A stretch of DNA of 45,020 bases from a virus. The notes beneath the pieces were generated by a model that searched no databases, had not been told where the DNA came from, and saw only the letters and a list, made by a program, of their open reading frames with translations. Each line of letters starts with the position of its first letter. Within the stretch, counting starts at the first letter, position 1. A program made the position numbers and the translations under genes. The stretch spans positions 1 through 45,020 of IMG/VR virus record IMGVR_UViG_3300034061_004859; one strand, given 5' to 3'. Shown here in pieces: positions 14,369 through 19,257 of this stretch.

Positions 14369-14689
14369 ATGTCCGTCGACAACCTGTTGCGAGAGATCGC
14401 GGCCTCCGGGTTCCTGTTGAACAACCTGTTCCAGCTTACCGACGGCACCTGGCGGGCGAACCTGCGGAAGCGTGGCGTAGCACGCACGCCGGGCGCCCTG
14501 GGCGACTGGCAACACGAGTATTGCGACGGCGAGACGCCCGAGGAGGCGCTGGCCGGAGCGGTCGCGAAGCTGGGCGGCGGGGTGTCCGACTGGAACCCAC
14601 CGACAACCGGCCTGCTGCCGGCCCTGGTCCGGAACCGACTGGCGCGCGAGGAACTGACGGAGGCGATCAATGGCAGACACCCGTTCTGA
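14369..14689 (+). CDS. Hypothetical protein
   Basis: 106 residues from ATG 14369, two bases after the polymerase stop. It opens with a helical MSVDNLLREIAASGFLLNNL, has FQLTDGTWRANLRKRG, then a Trp/Asp-rich middle (ALGDWQHEYCDGETPEEALAGAV), and ends in a basic helix. The pattern W-R-A-N-L, E-Y-C-D-G-E-T-P-E-E-A-L suggests a small single-domain protein of a type common in phages, where a conserved strand precedes a P-E-E-A-L helix. I do not recognise a function. It overlaps the NUMOD3-repeat gene by 20 bases. Confidence 0.75.
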   Translation: MSVDNLLREIAASGFLLNNLFQLTDGTWRANLRKRGVARTPGALGDWQHEYCDGETPEEALAGAVAKLGGGVSDWNPPTTGLLPALVRNRLAREELTEAINGRHPF

Positions 14690-15077
14690 GAAAATGAAAC
14701 GGCGGTGGCAGGACCCGGAATACCGGGCGCGCATGGTCGCCGCGGCGACCGCCAGCGCGAAACGCCGATGGCAGGACCCGGAGTATCAGGAACTCATGCG
14801 GGCTTCGAACTCCCGGACCCGGAAGGGCCGGCCGCTATCCGAGAAGAACAAGGCGGGCATCTCCGCCGCGAAGACGGGCAAGCGCCTGTCCGATGCCCAC
14901 CGGGAGGCGATCTCCCGAGGACAGAAGACCCGCCAGATGACCCCGGAACACCGGGCGAAATTGTCCGCCGCAGCGAAGGGCAAACCGAAGTCGCCGGAAC
15001 ACCGGGCCGCCATATCCAAGACGATGCTGCGGGTCATGGAAGACGAAAACGAACGGATGAAACGAGGCAGGACATGA
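14670..15077 (+). CDS. NUMOD3-repeat DNA-binding protein (no nuclease domain)
   Basis: 135 residues from ATG 14670, overlapping the previous gene. Residues 8-43 hold two RRWQDPEY motifs. The remainder is a run of NUMOD3-type modules: GRPLSEKNKAGISAAKTG, GKRLSDAHREAISRGQK, QMTPEHRAKLSAAAKG and KPKSPEHRAAISKT. NUMOD3 modules are DNA-binding units of homing endonucleases, normally attached to GIY-YIG or HNH domains. I find no GIY, YIG or HNH motif here, so this is a DNA-binding array alone: a regulator, a domesticated remnant, or a homing partner of the neighbouring genes. It ends in ATGA overlap with the methyltransferase gene at 15074. Confidence 0.85.
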   Translation: MADTRSEKMKRRWQDPEYRARMVAAATASAKRRWQDPEYQELMRASNSRTRKGRPLSEKNKAGISAAKTGKRLSDAHREAISRGQKTRQMTPEHRAKLSAAAKGKPKSPEHRAAISKTMLRVMEDENERMKRGRT

Positions 15078-15655
15078 CCCCGGCACAGCGGATCGCCGCG
15101 TACGAGAAGACGACCGGCTGGCGTGATAGCCTGTGGCTGCACGGCGACCAGATCCTTGGCATGTGGGTCATGGGCGCCAACTACCGCGTGAAGTCCGGCT
15201 ACTACGGAGGCTATCCGGCGGGCTACCTGAGCCGGATCAAGGCCCTGTTTCCGGACAAGCCGCGCGCCCTGCACCTGTTCGCCGGGAGGGTCGATCTGGA
15301 GACTTTTCCGGGGGTCACGGTTGACCGTGACATTGACTTGGACCCGGACTTCGTTGATGATGCGGAGACGCTAACCGACACGCCGGTAGCGGATTTCGAT
15401 CTGGTTCTCGCGGACCCTCCGTACTCGACCGAGGACGCCGTTCACTACGGCTCTCCGATGGCCAACCGGAACAAGGTCATGCGGGCGCTGACACAACTGA
15501 AGCCGGGCGCGCATGTCGTGTGGCTTGACCAAGTACTCCCGATGTACCGCCGCACCGACTGGATGATTTTGGCGCGGATCGGGATGGTCAAGTCGACCAA
15601 CCACCGGTTCCGGGTTGTGACGATCTTCGAACGGGCAGGGGATGACGATCTATGA
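15074..15655 (+). CDS. Putative DNA adenine methyltransferase (DPPY type)
   Basis: 193 residues from ATG 15074, which overlaps the previous stop. Residues 67-74 (LHLFAGRV) fit the SAM-binding motif I, TVDRDIDLDPD near 83-92 fits motif II, and LADPPYSTEDAVHYG has the catalytic DPPY at 114-117. The remainder (LKPGAHVVWLDQVLPMY, then WMILARIGMV and FRVVTIFERA) is compatible with a small Rossmann-fold methylase of the type common in siphoviruses. Target specificity cannot be predicted. It is flanked on both sides by NUMOD3-repeat genes, coupled by ATGA overlaps. Confidence 0.82.
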   Translation: MTPAQRIAAYEKTTGWRDSLWLHGDQILGMWVMGANYRVKSGYYGGYPAGYLSRIKALFPDKPRALHLFAGRVDLETFPGVTVDRDIDLDPDFVDDAETLTDTPVADFDLVLADPPYSTEDAVHYGSPMANRNKVMRALTQLKPGAHVVWLDQVLPMYRRTDWMILARIGMVKSTNHRFRVVTIFERAGDDDL

Positions 15656-15936
15656 AAACGGGATCTACACACACAGAAGAGTCTAAGGCCCGGATATCGG
15701 CCTCGCTTAAAGGCCGACCGATGTCCGCCGAATCGAAGGCGAAAATGATCGCTTCGAAAACTGGCGTGCCGTTGTCGCCGGAACACCGGGCCGCGCTGTC
15801 CAAAGCGAAAAAAGGGAAGCCTGGACGCCCTGTGACAAACGAAACCCGGATCGCGATGTCGGCCGCTAAGAAAGGTCGGCCGCTATCTCCGGAACACCGG
15901 GCAGCGATTTCTCGCGGTCGGAGGGCCAGAAAGTGA
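15652..15936 (+). CDS. Second NUMOD3-repeat DNA-binding protein
   Basis: 94 residues from ATG 15652 (ATGA overlap). The whole protein is NUMOD3-like modules: EESKARISASLKGRPMS, ESKAKMIASKTGVPLS, EHRAALSKAKKGKPG and EHRAAISRGRRARK. It is very basic and lacks any nuclease motif. Its modules resemble those at 14670-15077 (shared SPEHRAA and KGxP patterns), so the two genes are probably paralogues separated by the methyltransferase gene. It could be a stand-alone DNA-binding protein, or the decayed half of a homing endonuclease. Confidence 0.83.
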   Translation: MKTGSTHTEESKARISASLKGRPMSAESKAKMIASKTGVPLSPEHRAALSKAKKGKPGRPVTNETRIAMSAAKKGRPLSPEHRAAISRGRRARK

Positions 15937-16421
15937 CGCAACAGGAACTCGACGACTTGGCTTCCGCGTACGACAGGTTTGTCTGCCGCGGGGTCGACCT
16001 GCTGAGCGATACGGGATTCCCCGTAACGACCGGCCTGCGGACGGCGGTCCTGGCAACGGGCTGGGCGGAAACCCGTTACGCTTGGCGTACGCACCCTTCG
16101 TATTTTCGCACCGGGTTCTGGTCGATCACGACGCCGTTGTTGCGGACGTTGCAAAGCATAAATAGCTTGCCGCTGGACCGGGTGATTGACGTTCTTGCTC
16201 TTCGCACCACGGAGCGCAACGTCCTCCGGGAAGCCTGCAAATGGAACGACGAACTGGCCGCCGCGGTCGCCGGCTTGGCGATCTACCCGGCCCTGCCCCG
16301 GACGCACCCGACGACCGCCTGGGACGACCTGAACGTCGCCCGCAAGCTGGCGTGGGGACGAGAGGTCACCCCGGTCACCGAGGATCTATGGGACGCCTGT
16401 GCCCGGATTGCCGCAGCATGA
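15933..16421 (+). CDS. Hypothetical protein
   Basis: 162 residues from GTG 15933, overlapping the previous stop (GTGA). It appears all-helical: an N-terminal ELDDLASAYDRFVCRGVDLL helix, a middle region with Trp and Arg (ATGWAETRYAWRTHPSYF) and a C-terminal segment DDLNVARKLAWGREVTP, then a last helix. I recognise no domain. It ends in an ATGA overlap with the intein-containing methyltransferase, so the two are probably co-translated. A modulator or partner of the methyltransferase is possible but unsupported. Confidence 0.75.
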   Translation: MTQQELDDLASAYDRFVCRGVDLLSDTGFPVTTGLRTAVLATGWAETRYAWRTHPSYFRTGFWSITTPLLRTLQSINSLPLDRVIDVLALRTTERNVLREACKWNDELAAAVAGLAIYPALPRTHPTTAWDDLNVARKLAWGREVTPVTEDLWDACARIAAA

Positions 16422-18853
16422 CGGCTACATATCATGGAGCCGAGATACGGCATGGTGATTGCCGGGACGTCCTGGCCGTCGCGCGACAGGCCGGGGAGTT
16501 GTACCACGCGGTCGTCACCGACCCGCCGTATCATCTGCTGAGCATCACCAAGCGGTTCGCCAAGACTGGCGGCGCCGACCGGACGCTACATACGAAGCAC
16601 CACCAGTACCACCGGCTGTCCAAGGGATTCATGGGGAAGTCTTGGGATGGGGGCGACGTGGCGTTCCAGCCGGAGACCTGGCGTCGGGTGTGGGACGTGC
16701 TGCACCCTGGCGCCCACATGGTCGTCTTCGGAGGCACCCGCACCTATCACCGGCTTGTCTGTGCGGTCGAGGATGCGGGGTTCGAGGTTCGGGACTGCCT
16801 GCAATGGATGTTCGGATGTCTGGATGCTATAACTCAGGTCGCTACGCCGAACGGGGTCAAATCTTACACGGAATTGAATCCAGGGGACCTCGTAATTTGT
16901 TACGACGTAGCCACAGGGGCCTACAGCCTGCAACCGATCTTGGACATAGTGGAATATGACTACGAGGATACCGCCTACCGAATTGTCGGAGATTTTGGGG
17001 AGCAAGTCGTCAGCCGAAATCACCGTTGCATCGTTGAACGCGGCGGAGTGGAAACATTTCAGTTTGCAGAAGACGCCGCACAAGAACACGAAACGCGCGT
17101 ACCCGTTCTGGAAAATTTGCGAACGCTGCAAAGCGCCCTTTACGGTGTCGAATCGGACGCAGGCTGTGCGGAACCGTCTGTGCGGCAAGACGTGCTTGTC
17201 GGCCGTAATCTCGGCCAGCCAGACCGGCCGCGAGAAACCGTTGGCCAGTCGCTTAGGGGAATCGACGCCGTGTTCGGTGTGCGGGACCGCGGTTTGGCGG
17301 TTCAACTCCCGTCTACGCCGGGTAGCCTCTGTGAAGTGCAGCTATCAATGCAACGGAGTGGATCGGGGCCGCGAATGGGCGACGCACGCACACAAAGGCC
17401 GGGCGGCGTGGACTCCGCAAAGCATAGCCGCGCAGGTTGCGCGGTGGACAGGGCCGGCGAACCCGTCTTGGGTAGGCGGGATAACTTACCGGAACCGGAG
17501 AGGCGCCTACGCGAATCAAGCCATAAAATACGTACGGTGTCCGCCGGAGTTCCTGACGATGGCGCGGAAGGACGGCTACGTGATGGAACATCGCCTCGTA
17601 GTGGCGCGGTGTTTGGGTCGGCCGTTGCTACGGACCGAGTGTGTGCATCACCGGGACCACGATGCGACTCGGTCCCCGCCGGACAACCTGATGTTGTTTG
17701 CGACGAACGGCCAGCACAAAGCGTACGAGAATGGCCGGGCCATAAAACCGCTATGGTGCGGATTGTGCCATTTCATTACACTGGAAAAGTCTGGTGTTTG
17801 CGTGTGCCTACCGGGGCGTTCGTCGCGGTCCGTAATGGCGTAGCGTTCCCGACGGGCAACAGCGGCTTTCCTAAGAGCCACGATGTCAGCAAGGGCGTTG
17901 ACAAGGCCCTTGGTGCGGAACGAGACAAAGTTCGCCCGCGTAGCGTCATTTCGCACTCACGGTCTATCGGCAACGTCCGCCCGTATATGTCCGACCCAGA
18001 CCACATGACGGTATCGGACGTCCCCGCCACTCCGGAAGGCGAAGCCTGGACCGGCTGGGGCACAGCGATGAAGCCCGCCCATGAAATGATCCTCCTCGCC
18101 CGTAAGCCTCTGATCGGTACCGTCGCACAGACTGTACTGGCGACCGGGTGCGGCGGACTGAACATAGACGGGTGCCGCGTACCAGGTAACACCCCAGACA
18201 GTCGCGAAGGCGAACCTTCCGCCGGTCGTCGGTACTCCGAGAAGGGGGCGACAAATTTTGCGGCGACTCCCGGGCCGCGAGGAGGCGATCCAGCGGGCCG
18301 TTGGCCTCCGAACGTCCTGCACGACGGATCGCCGGAAGTGTTGCAGGCGTTCGGGCGGTTCGGAGAAACGAAGTCGACCGCCCAGGTTCGACACAACGGA
18401 GCATTCAAGTCGGTCGCCAAGGGCGCCGAGACGCCGCGCGACAGTCACGGGTTCTCGGACTCCGGCACAGCCGCCCGCTTCTTCCCGGCCTTCCCGTACA
18501 CGGACGAGGACTACCGGTTCCACTACAGCAGCAAGGCGAACAAGGCCGAGCGGATCGGCAGCCAACATCCGACCGTCAAGCCGATCGGGCTGCTGAAGTG
18601 GCTGGTCCGGTTGGTGACGCCGCCCGGCGGGCGCATCCTCGATCCGTTCGCCGGCACCGCGACGACCGGGGCCGCGGCGCGGGCCGAGGGCTTCGACTTC
18701 ACGGGAATTGAGATGACCGACGAGTATGTCGAGGACTGCCTGCGCCGGCTGCCCGAGGCCACGGTCGACCGGGGGCCGTGGGGCCTCGACCTACGGGACA
18801 CCTTGGCCCGCAACCGGGCTGCACACGCACGACTTAGGGAGATTCTACCATGA
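16418..18853 (+). CDS. Intein-containing beta-class DNA methyltransferase
   Basis: 811-residue precursor; the spliced product would be 463 residues. ATG 16418 overlaps the previous stop. The N-extein carries the catalytic DPPY at 35-38 (VVTDPPYHLL) and ends WMFG at residue 133. The C-extein resumes SGFPKSHDVSKGVDKAL, the block that directly follows WMFG in intein-free relatives, and carries the SAM motif ILDPFAGTATTG near the end. DPPY before FxGxxT is the beta-class order (N4-cytosine or N6-adenine). An intein fills residues 134-481 and lacks an in-frame homing endonuclease; residues ~235-447 of the precursor look like a shadow of the HNH gene in the next frame. It is probably active only after splicing. 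Confidence 0.93.
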   Translation: MTATYHGAEIRHGDCRDVLAVARQAGELYHAVVTDPPYHLLSITKRFAKTGGADRTLHTKHHQYHRLSKGFMGKSWDGGDVAFQPETWRRVWDVLHPGAHMVVFGGTRTYHRLVCAVEDAGFEVRDCLQWMFGCLDAITQVATPNGVKSYTELNPGDLVICYDVATGAYSLQPILDIVEYDYEDTAYRIVGDFGEQVVSRNHRCIVERGGVETFQFAEDAAQEHETRVPVLENLRTLQSALYGVESDAGCAEPSVRQDVLVGRNLGQPDRPRETVGQSLRGIDAVFGVRDRGLAVQLPSTPGSLCEVQLSMQRSGSGPRMGDARTQRPGGVDSAKHSRAGCAVDRAGEPVLGRRDNLPEPERRLRESSHKIRTVSAGVPDDGAEGRLRDGTSPRSGAVFGSAVATDRVCASPGPRCDSVPAGQPDVVCDERPAQSVREWPGHKTAMVRIVPFHYTGKVWCLRVPTGAFVAVRNGVAFPTGNSGFPKSHDVSKGVDKALGAERDKVRPRSVISHSRSIGNVRPYMSDPDHMTVSDVPATPEGEAWTGWGTAMKPAHEMILLARKPLIGTVAQTVLATGCGGLNIDGCRVPGNTPDSREGEPSAGRRYSEKGATNFAATPGPRGGDPAGRWPPNVLHDGSPEVLQAFGRFGETKSTAQVRHNGAFKSVAKGAETPRDSHGFSDSGTAARFFPAFPYTDEDYRFHYSSKANKAERIGSQHPTVKPIGLLKWLVRLVTPPGGRILDPFAGTATTGAAARAEGFDFTGIEMTDEYVEDCLRRLPEATVDRGPWGLDLRDTLARNRAAHARLREILP
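16817..17860 (+). other. Intein (348 residues) in the DNA methyltransferase
   Basis: The intein starts with Cys (16817-16819) after the extein WMFG and ends TGN (Asn 17858-17860) before Ser. Hint-N shows block A (CLDAITQVATPNGVKSYTEL, then PGDLVICYD) and block B VVSRNHRCIV with the conserved His at intein residue 69, ending near RVPVLENL (~17116). Hint-C (from ~17759) has block F YTGKVWCLRVPTGAF and block G RNGVAFPTGN. The penultimate residue is Gly rather than His. Cys1, terminal Asn and +1 Ser are the three splicing residues and all are present. The ~640 bases between Hint-N and Hint-C encode no recognisable protein in this frame. Confidence 0.93.
16956..17843 (+). CDS. HNH homing endonuclease nested out of frame inside the intein
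   Basis: 295 residues in the +1 frame relative to the methyltransferase, wholly inside the intein coding sequence. It has two zinc-ribbon-like pairs, C55xxC58 with C76/C80 (ICERCKAPF ... LCGKTC) and C106xxC109 with C128/C132. An HNH core follows: EHRLVV (211-216), LGRPLLRTECVHHRDHD with HH at 231-232, N244 and H254 (NGQHKAYE), then a CGLC pair at 268-271. This is the architecture of phage HNH homing enzymes. ATG 16956 has only a weak GTGGA upstream, and downstream TTG codons (e.g. the L of ASLN) are alternatives. It overlaps Hint-N at its start and Hint-C at its end. Confidence 0.88.
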   Translation: MTTRIPPTELSEILGSKSSAEITVASLNAAEWKHFSLQKTPHKNTKRAYPFWKICERCKAPFTVSNRTQAVRNRLCGKTCLSAVISASQTGREKPLASRLGESTPCSVCGTAVWRFNSRLRRVASVKCSYQCNGVDRGREWATHAHKGRAAWTPQSIAAQVARWTGPANPSWVGGITYRNRRGAYANQAIKYVRCPPEFLTMARKDGYVMEHRLVVARCLGRPLLRTECVHHRDHDATRSPPDNLMLFATNGQHKAYENGRAIKPLWCGLCHFITLEKSGVCVCLPGRSSRSVMA

Positions 18854-19257
18854 GCGGTATCTATGTTGCGAGCCGGGCCAGTTTGCCCGCGCGCCCGGCC
18901 ATGTGGCGGGGTTACCGGGACAGAGGATTCCCGATCGTCTCGTCGTGGATCGACGAAGCAGGCGATGGCGAAACGGCCGACTTTGAAGACCTCTGGAGTC
19001 GCATTGACCGGGAGATAGCGTCGGCTTCGGCTTTGGTTTTGTACGCCGAACGAGAAGATTTCCCGTTGAAAGGCGCTTACGTAGAGGCCGGCATGGCGTT
19101 GGCACGCGGTATCCCGATTTTGTGCGCCTTTCCGGGTGTCGTTCTTGACCCCCGGAGCGCCCGGCCGGTCGGGTCTTGGTTACATCACCCTTTCTGCCAG
19201 ATTTTCATTACGTTGGACGCGGCGATGTCCGCTGCGAAGCGTCTTGCTACCCCGTGA
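18850..19257 (+). CDS. Nucleoside 2-deoxyribosyltransferase-like protein
   Basis: 135 residues from ATG 18850 (ATGA overlap with the methyltransferase). The pattern IYVASRASLPARPAMWRGY, VSSWIDEAGDGETADFEDLW and a late GAYVEAGMALARGIPI resembles the nucleoside 2-deoxyribosyltransferase superfamily. In that family the ...DxxxxGxxxExGxAxAxGxPv element binds the substrate, with Glu (in YVEAGMA) as nucleophile candidate. Phage members often have uncertain chemistry. In this block with ThyX and methyltransferases it could act in nucleotide salvage or base modification, or bind nucleotides as a sensor. The family call is moderate; the activity is inferred. Confidence 0.72.
   Translation: MSGIYVASRASLPARPAMWRGYRDRGFPIVSSWIDEAGDGETADFEDLWSRIDREIASASALVLYAEREDFPLKGAYVEAGMALARGIPILCAFPGVVLDPRSARPVGSWLHHPFCQIFITLDAAMSAAKRLATP

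Follow-up and report, generated by a model that had tools for sequence, protein, structure and literature searches.

A phage DNA methyltransferase (MTase) gene is very probably interrupted by a mobile intein that uses two overlapping frames of one DNA segment, one for splicing and the other for homing. The gene lies in a 45,020-bp IMG/VR virus record, the whole of which is referred to here as the window. Sequence analysis established the recurrence of the arrangement, its fixed offset, the avoidance of stop codons, constraint in both frames and the predicted folds; splicing, independent initiation of the endonuclease, cleavage specificity and homing are inferred. In the proposed mechanism, reading of the segment in the MTase frame would give a Hint splicing domain split by a long disordered linker, and the intein would splice itself out to leave an active MTase. 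Reading one base over would give a zinc-finger HNH nuclease, translated separately, that would cleave MTase alleles without the intein at their SGFPKS site, after which the whole segment would be copied in. The linker would keep no sequence of its own, the sole demand upon it being freedom from stops. As the HNH start (ATG 16956) is inside Hint-N, about 200 bp would be doubly coding, each frame specifying a folded domain. A ribosome-binding site and a sigma70-like promoter belonging to the HNH gene itself may lie concealed within Hint-N in many relatives; in the window copy the predicted ribosome-binding site is weak and a promoter of this kind is lacking.

Intein endonucleases are taught as in-frame domains. 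This widespread family instead splits two functions by reading frame and not by domain, the price being stop avoidance, with one DNA stretch kept readable as two different proteins. Searches for in-frame intein endonucleases miss such elements, which constitute a well-populated system for the study of double-coding constraint, of nested-gene expression and of whether new domains arise when mobile elements are overprinted.

Anatomy of the intein and the nested HNH gene

The MTase gene (16418–18853; all features described here are on the + strand) is an open ORF matching N6_N4_Mtase (Pfam PF01555, E 1.4e-22). The earliest ATG is at 16241 and the stop at 18853, with a probable start at 16418 inferred from overlap with the stop of the upstream ORF, and the intein frame is uninterrupted throughout. 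Just 5' of the gene are two small NUMOD3-repeat proteins (14670–15077 and 15652–15936; Pfam E 1.4e-8 and 9.6e-18), the genes for which flank an ORF with a DPPY motif; NUMOD3 modules are usual in homing endonucleases.

A preliminary description of the window had proposed a complete-looking intein with Cys1 at 16817, blocks B and F, a terminal Asn and a +1 Ser, and these coordinates and motifs were confirmed. Between an N-extein (16418–16816) and a C-extein (17861–18853), the intein extends over 16817–17860, from Cys1 to TGN followed by Ser+1, as defined by motifs and by an alignment of 73 same-site elements, and the insertion point in the MTase is W-x-Y/F-G followed by SGFPKS. Hint-N (intein aa 1–114; 16817–17158) contains block B (SRNHRCIV, 17012–17035), and Hint-C (aa 301–348; 17717–17860) contains block F (YTGKVWC, 17777–17797) and block G (FPTGN, ending at 17860 and followed by S), in which the penultimate residue is Gly in place of His in the window and every same-site relative. 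Residues C1, V65, H69, C327, F335, F344, T346, G347 and N348 are invariant in the aligned elements and the +1 residue is Ser in all same-site rows. The MTase of Mantra (gp64) is uninterrupted at this site (WLYG-SGFPKS) and represents an intein-free allele. Those criteria for an intein that can be judged from sequence and predicted structure are thus satisfied by Cys1, the block B His, blocks F and G, the terminal Asn, the +1 Ser, the Hint fold and the intein-free allele, but Pfam intein models match just 6/44 family members. A group I intron carrying an HNH ORF was not supported, no Rfam match to a catalytic intron RNA being found across 16400–18900 at E values up to 1.

AlphaFold2 (AF2) run on the intein-frame alignment predicted a confident Hint domain from aa 1–114 and 301–348 (pLDDT 88–98; 92–98 in Hint-N and about 88–98 in Hint-C), and a Foldseek search with this model matched inteins (6zgq, E 2.3e-5, prob 1.00). 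The linker between the two halves (aa 115–300; 17159–17716), previously proposed to be inert, was indeed predicted to be disordered, with pLDDT about 41–67 over most of its length and no secondary structure, and is deleted in mini-inteins L131 and L154.

The HNH ORF (16956–17843, 295 aa) is in the +1 frame relative to the intein and MTase, running from ATG 16956 to a stop at 17841–17843, and is the sole long ORF of that frame in the region. A TAG stop in the HNH frame (16947–16949) lies two codons 5' of the ATG. The two zinc pairs, EHR, HH and final H on which the preliminary description had based a full HNH enzyme were all located. Two zinc-binding modules (17118–17351), CERC/CGKTC at 17118–17195 and CSVC/CSYQC at 17271–17351, include residues C55, C58, C128 and C132 of the HNH protein, which are conserved in the family, and the catalytic core (17583–17720) consists of MEHR (17583–17594), VHHRDHD (17643–17663), NLMLF and QHK (17712–17720). 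The window protein matches PHROG HNH endonuclease families (E 3e-12) and is itself under the Pfam threshold; Pfam HNH_3 was detected in 42/44 HNH-frame family members. AF2 of the HNH frame, from the same DNA, gave a mean pLDDT of 89. Whole-chain Foldseek of this model returned no significant match in solved structures, with I-HmuI at E 5.2 only, and the identity of the protein as an HNH endonuclease thus rests on Pfam, PHROG and motifs. The intein frame stays open over the whole HNH gene, as originally noted, and through the MTase ORF.

Recurrence and constraint in both frames

A search of IMG/VR with the HNH frame yielded the best 80 loci, to which profile searches contributed further ones on contigs of IMG/VR and GTDB; when the pattern was taken from the window intein only, no relatives were recovered. 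At least 74 distinct elements (window included; GC 32–67%) occupy the same MTase site, W-x-Y-G followed by SGFPK in most. In 74/74 of these the intein frame runs without a stop from Cys1 through TGN and the following S, and an HNH is present at +1 with an identical offset. An HNH in the intein frame, which would have refuted the arrangement, was sought and was absent from all 74 (the +1 HNH of the window recurring in the 73 others), and none has an HNH in the remaining forward frame or encoded by the opposite strand. The criterion for a canonical HE-intein, an endonuclease in the Hint frame, is therefore not met. Besides the window, carriers comprise more than 70 phages, mostly uncultivated; the unrelated contigs sharing the +1 layout include LR756508.1, and the element was found in 1/50,697 public phage records, that genome being unannotated. 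How common a hidden HNH is among such elements cannot be read from this set without bias, since each scan gave only its 80 best-scoring loci and the query itself carried the overlap.

The preliminary description had the HNH frame open into both Hint halves. This holds for Hint-N, where in the window the HNH N-terminal domain overlaps block B, but the extension into Hint-C is seen only in the window and a small number of relatives, and the HNH frame of most relatives stops ~100 nt short of the intein end. In L037, L039, L051 and L151 there are HNH-frame stops within the N-domain region, indicating that this domain is not always needed.

When the HNH codons of the window were shuffled among synonyms a mean of 5.6 intein-frame stops resulted, and only 0.055% of 20,000 shuffles contained none. 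Across the linkers of 72 elements, no intein-frame stops were observed against 658.6 expected from HNH-synonymous shuffles, with 805 stops present in the third frame; these totals are not independent draws, as the relatives share ancestry. Stop avoidance was also seen among members with a GC of 32–45%. Eleven free-standing HNH genes, a control set of annotated or verified genes from which HNHs nested in Hint-less MTases were left out, contained 175 stops in the same relative frame against 177.3 expected, indicating no avoidance. Sequencing error and chance are excluded as the cause of the dual open frames.

Codon constraint switches from intein to HNH and back to intein along the element. Divergence at intein codon positions 1/2/3 (60 pairs) was.347/.293/.470 across Hint-N nt 1–139; the linker, at.499/.263/.214, showed an HNH-like pattern and Hint-C, at.185/.109/.571, an intein-like one. 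Since intein position 1 is HNH position 3, the linker has the evolutionary pattern of an HNH gene and Hint-C that of an intein. Intein-frame third-position variability, normalized to the exteins, was about 1.0 in both exteins, at intein nt 1–36 and in Hint-C, 0.64–0.75 at nt 37–90 and 0.91–0.97 at nt 91–144, then fell to 0.49 at nt 145–162 and remained at 0.26–0.82 thereafter. The drop coincides with the HNH ATG (nt 139), indicating that ~200 bp of Hint-N including block B are constrained in both frames. In the window this doubly coded stretch, a helical N-terminal domain of the HNH protein over Hint-N, is 16956–17158, and double coding hence exceeds that of an HNH over a linker. Intein-synonymous variability is also lowered at intein nt 37–54 (window 16853–16870), 5' of the -35 site described below, and promoter hexamers do not account for it.

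Expression, origin and alternative explanations

Signals consistent with a start of the HNH near nt 139 were present in the family. Shine-Dalgarno (SD) pairing for starts near this position was stronger than in intein-synonymous shuffles (-3.17 versus -1.61 +/- 0.26 kcal/mol), and the Tyr codon that creates the HNH ATG was TAT in 47/67 against 29.6 expected. A sigma70-like score averaged 9.07 over the family, above the 8.27 +/- 0.13 of the synonymous null, and control inteins lacking a hidden HNH showed no such excess. In 44/72 the best sigma70-like site fell at one shared place (-35 at nt 61, -10 at nt 84), within the nt 37–90 dip in variability, and two elements (L018, L113) have TTGACA-N17-TATAAT with an extended -10 inside Hint-N. 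These promoter calls are consensus matches and not evidence of transcription. The window copy had a weak SD (-3.0 kcal/mol), and no sigma70 promoter was found in it (score 5.0, P 0.98). There is no start near nt 139 in 30/72 relatives, in which the HNH must consequently begin elsewhere; where the nt 139 start is missing, there is a modest excess of ATG codons close to nt 97 (20 versus 14.3 +/- 2), which could reflect leaderless translation of the HNH. In the absence of translation data, it is inferred that the HNH is most likely translated independently of the MTase and intein.

Programmed frameshifting in the MTase/Hint-N message, producing an MTase-N/Hint-N/HNH fusion without separate initiation, would account for the fact that the HNH frame is open well 5' of nt 139 in many relatives, where one +1 shift enters it. 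This appears improbable, as 12 members including the window have an HNH-frame stop only a few codons 5' of the nt 139 start (in the window TAG 16947, just before ATG 16956, which argues against entry by an upstream frameshift), synonymous constraint begins at the ATG and not 5' of it, SD and start signals are above null and free-standing relatives start at about the same residue. Somewhat less credible still is an insertion that stays in the mature MTase, its Hint halves decayed and no longer splicing. There is precedent for this in the ShiLan domain, hidden-HNH inserts without splicing domains having been reported in the same MTase family (PMC11855218), and 26 rows lacking Hint were placed in the present tree; nevertheless, nine Hint residues (C1 to N348) are invariant across 73 same-site elements, all of which have the +1 Ser, a Hint fold is predicted with pLDDT 88–98 and Hint-C is under strong purifying selection of intein type.

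Very little weight can be given to the view that the HNH frame is not a gene in use but a defunct remnant or merely a consequence of base composition. The high GC of the window copy favors open frames, but stop avoidance extends to members at 32–45% GC, the linker shows HNH-type codon constraint and catalytic and zinc residues are conserved in relatives at 35–57% identity to the window protein. The preliminary description had also raised the possibility of two compensating indels, that is, sequencing or assembly errors in a normal in-frame HNH intein. Only the single-record nature of the window speaks for these, and as 74 divergent elements on unrelated contigs keep both frames open with the same fixed offset, none of them with the HNH in frame, this explanation is refuted with practically no residual doubt. 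An intein with splicing and homing in overlapping frames remains the preferred reading.

Two free-standing HNH genes (L233:3504–4286 and L252:3498–4277), the other two frames of which are full of stops, share with the nested copies the N-terminal domain that those encode over Hint-N (15.8 and 18.2 bits, against a maximum of 9.8 among 1000 shuffles) and are possible escapees from inteins. As Hint-N must be ancestral to the intein, the best explanation for the HNH N-domain is that it was overprinted on Hint-N and escaped afterwards. In the tree the two genes fall at two places inside intein-nested clades, and with support of only 82–91 overprinting followed by escape remains a hypothesis. It is thus conceivable, although we would stop just short of favoring it, that the HNH constitutes a complete gene in itself, with promoter, ribosome-binding site and ORF all superimposed on the intein, that its N-terminal domain was born by overprinting of the +1 frame of ancestral Hint-N and that on at least two occasions (L233, L252) such a gene subsequently moved out of the intein and became free-standing, taking the overprinted domain with it. 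If so, inteins would be a birthplace of new protein domains and a route for homing nucleases to become free genes.

Alleles at the same MTase site include intein-free, LAGLIDADG-bearing and mini-intein forms. The same-site mini-inteins L131 and L154 lack both HNH and linker, and L131 retains a piece of the overprinted tail (REWRGHRTA, cf. REWPGHKTA) and so looks like a deletion derivative. In a Liptonbacteria-binned contig (L160:4662–6164) the intein frame is open over the HNH and Hint-C is lost, possibly representing a decayed copy.

Comparison with known systems

In HNH-bearing canonical inteins the nuclease is nested in frame and translated as part of the intein. The window family shares with these the combination of Hint and an HNH homing nuclease in one mobile element, but its nuclease occupies a separate overlapping frame. 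The 'fractured genes' of Dassa et al. 2009 are reportedly split inteins whose halves are separated by a nuclease ORF, the gene being physically split and the nuclease without overlap. There, too, the nuclease is translated apart from the splicing domain, whereas the window intein is continuous and overlaps its nuclease.

The nearest relatives in arrangement are the ShiLan domain, a hidden HNH in a mycobacteriophage DNA methylase of the same MTase family (PMC11855218, 2025), and the Applejack gp54/gp55 pair (PMC12613952), in which, as in the window, an HNH is out of frame within an uninterrupted ORF. Their disjunct distribution has been taken as homing (PMC11855218, PMC12613952). The authors argue that the ShiLan domain is not an intein, there being no Hint or intein motifs (PMC11855218). 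It uses the other alternative frame (0 third-frame stops, +1-frame stops present) and a different MTase insertion site; the window element has intact Hint halves and sits at an intein site, and the ShiLan-domain criterion is not met.

Further combinations were observed in this MTase family. A second class of hidden +1-frame HNH (L038, L040, L042, L045, L048, L049, L052, L063, L067, L068, L070, L071, L077, L078 and L079) is inserted between SGFPKS and GTALKP without Hint, in a stop-free MTase frame and not in the ShiLan frame. Three metagenomic MTases carry the +1-HNH intein plus a ShiLan-type insertion with its HNH in the other alternative frame (L036:6490–6693, L039:6250–6432 and L051:5175–5369), and L021 and L034 have the +1-HNH intein plus an additional +1 HNH insertion.

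An MTase intein of mycobacteriophages ShiLan, Dorothy and others contains an in-frame LAGLIDADG endonuclease (PMC9957025). Its insertion site, between WLYG and SGFPKS, was found here to be that of the window family, and its Hint-N and Hint-C are homologous, with the C-terminus up to 82% identical; the ShiLan copy of this intein gave no HNH match in any frame. A literature search for an out-of-frame endonuclease inside an intein returned only the ShiLan work and Applejack, and a preprint from the same group on non-canonical intein architecture (Gosselin et al. 2025, 10.1101/2025.01.02.630785) was outside that search and could describe it. A hidden HNH in this MTase family was already known; new with respect to the searchable literature are a hidden-frame nuclease in an intact intein, its occurrence on the scale of a family and a doubly coded Hint-N.
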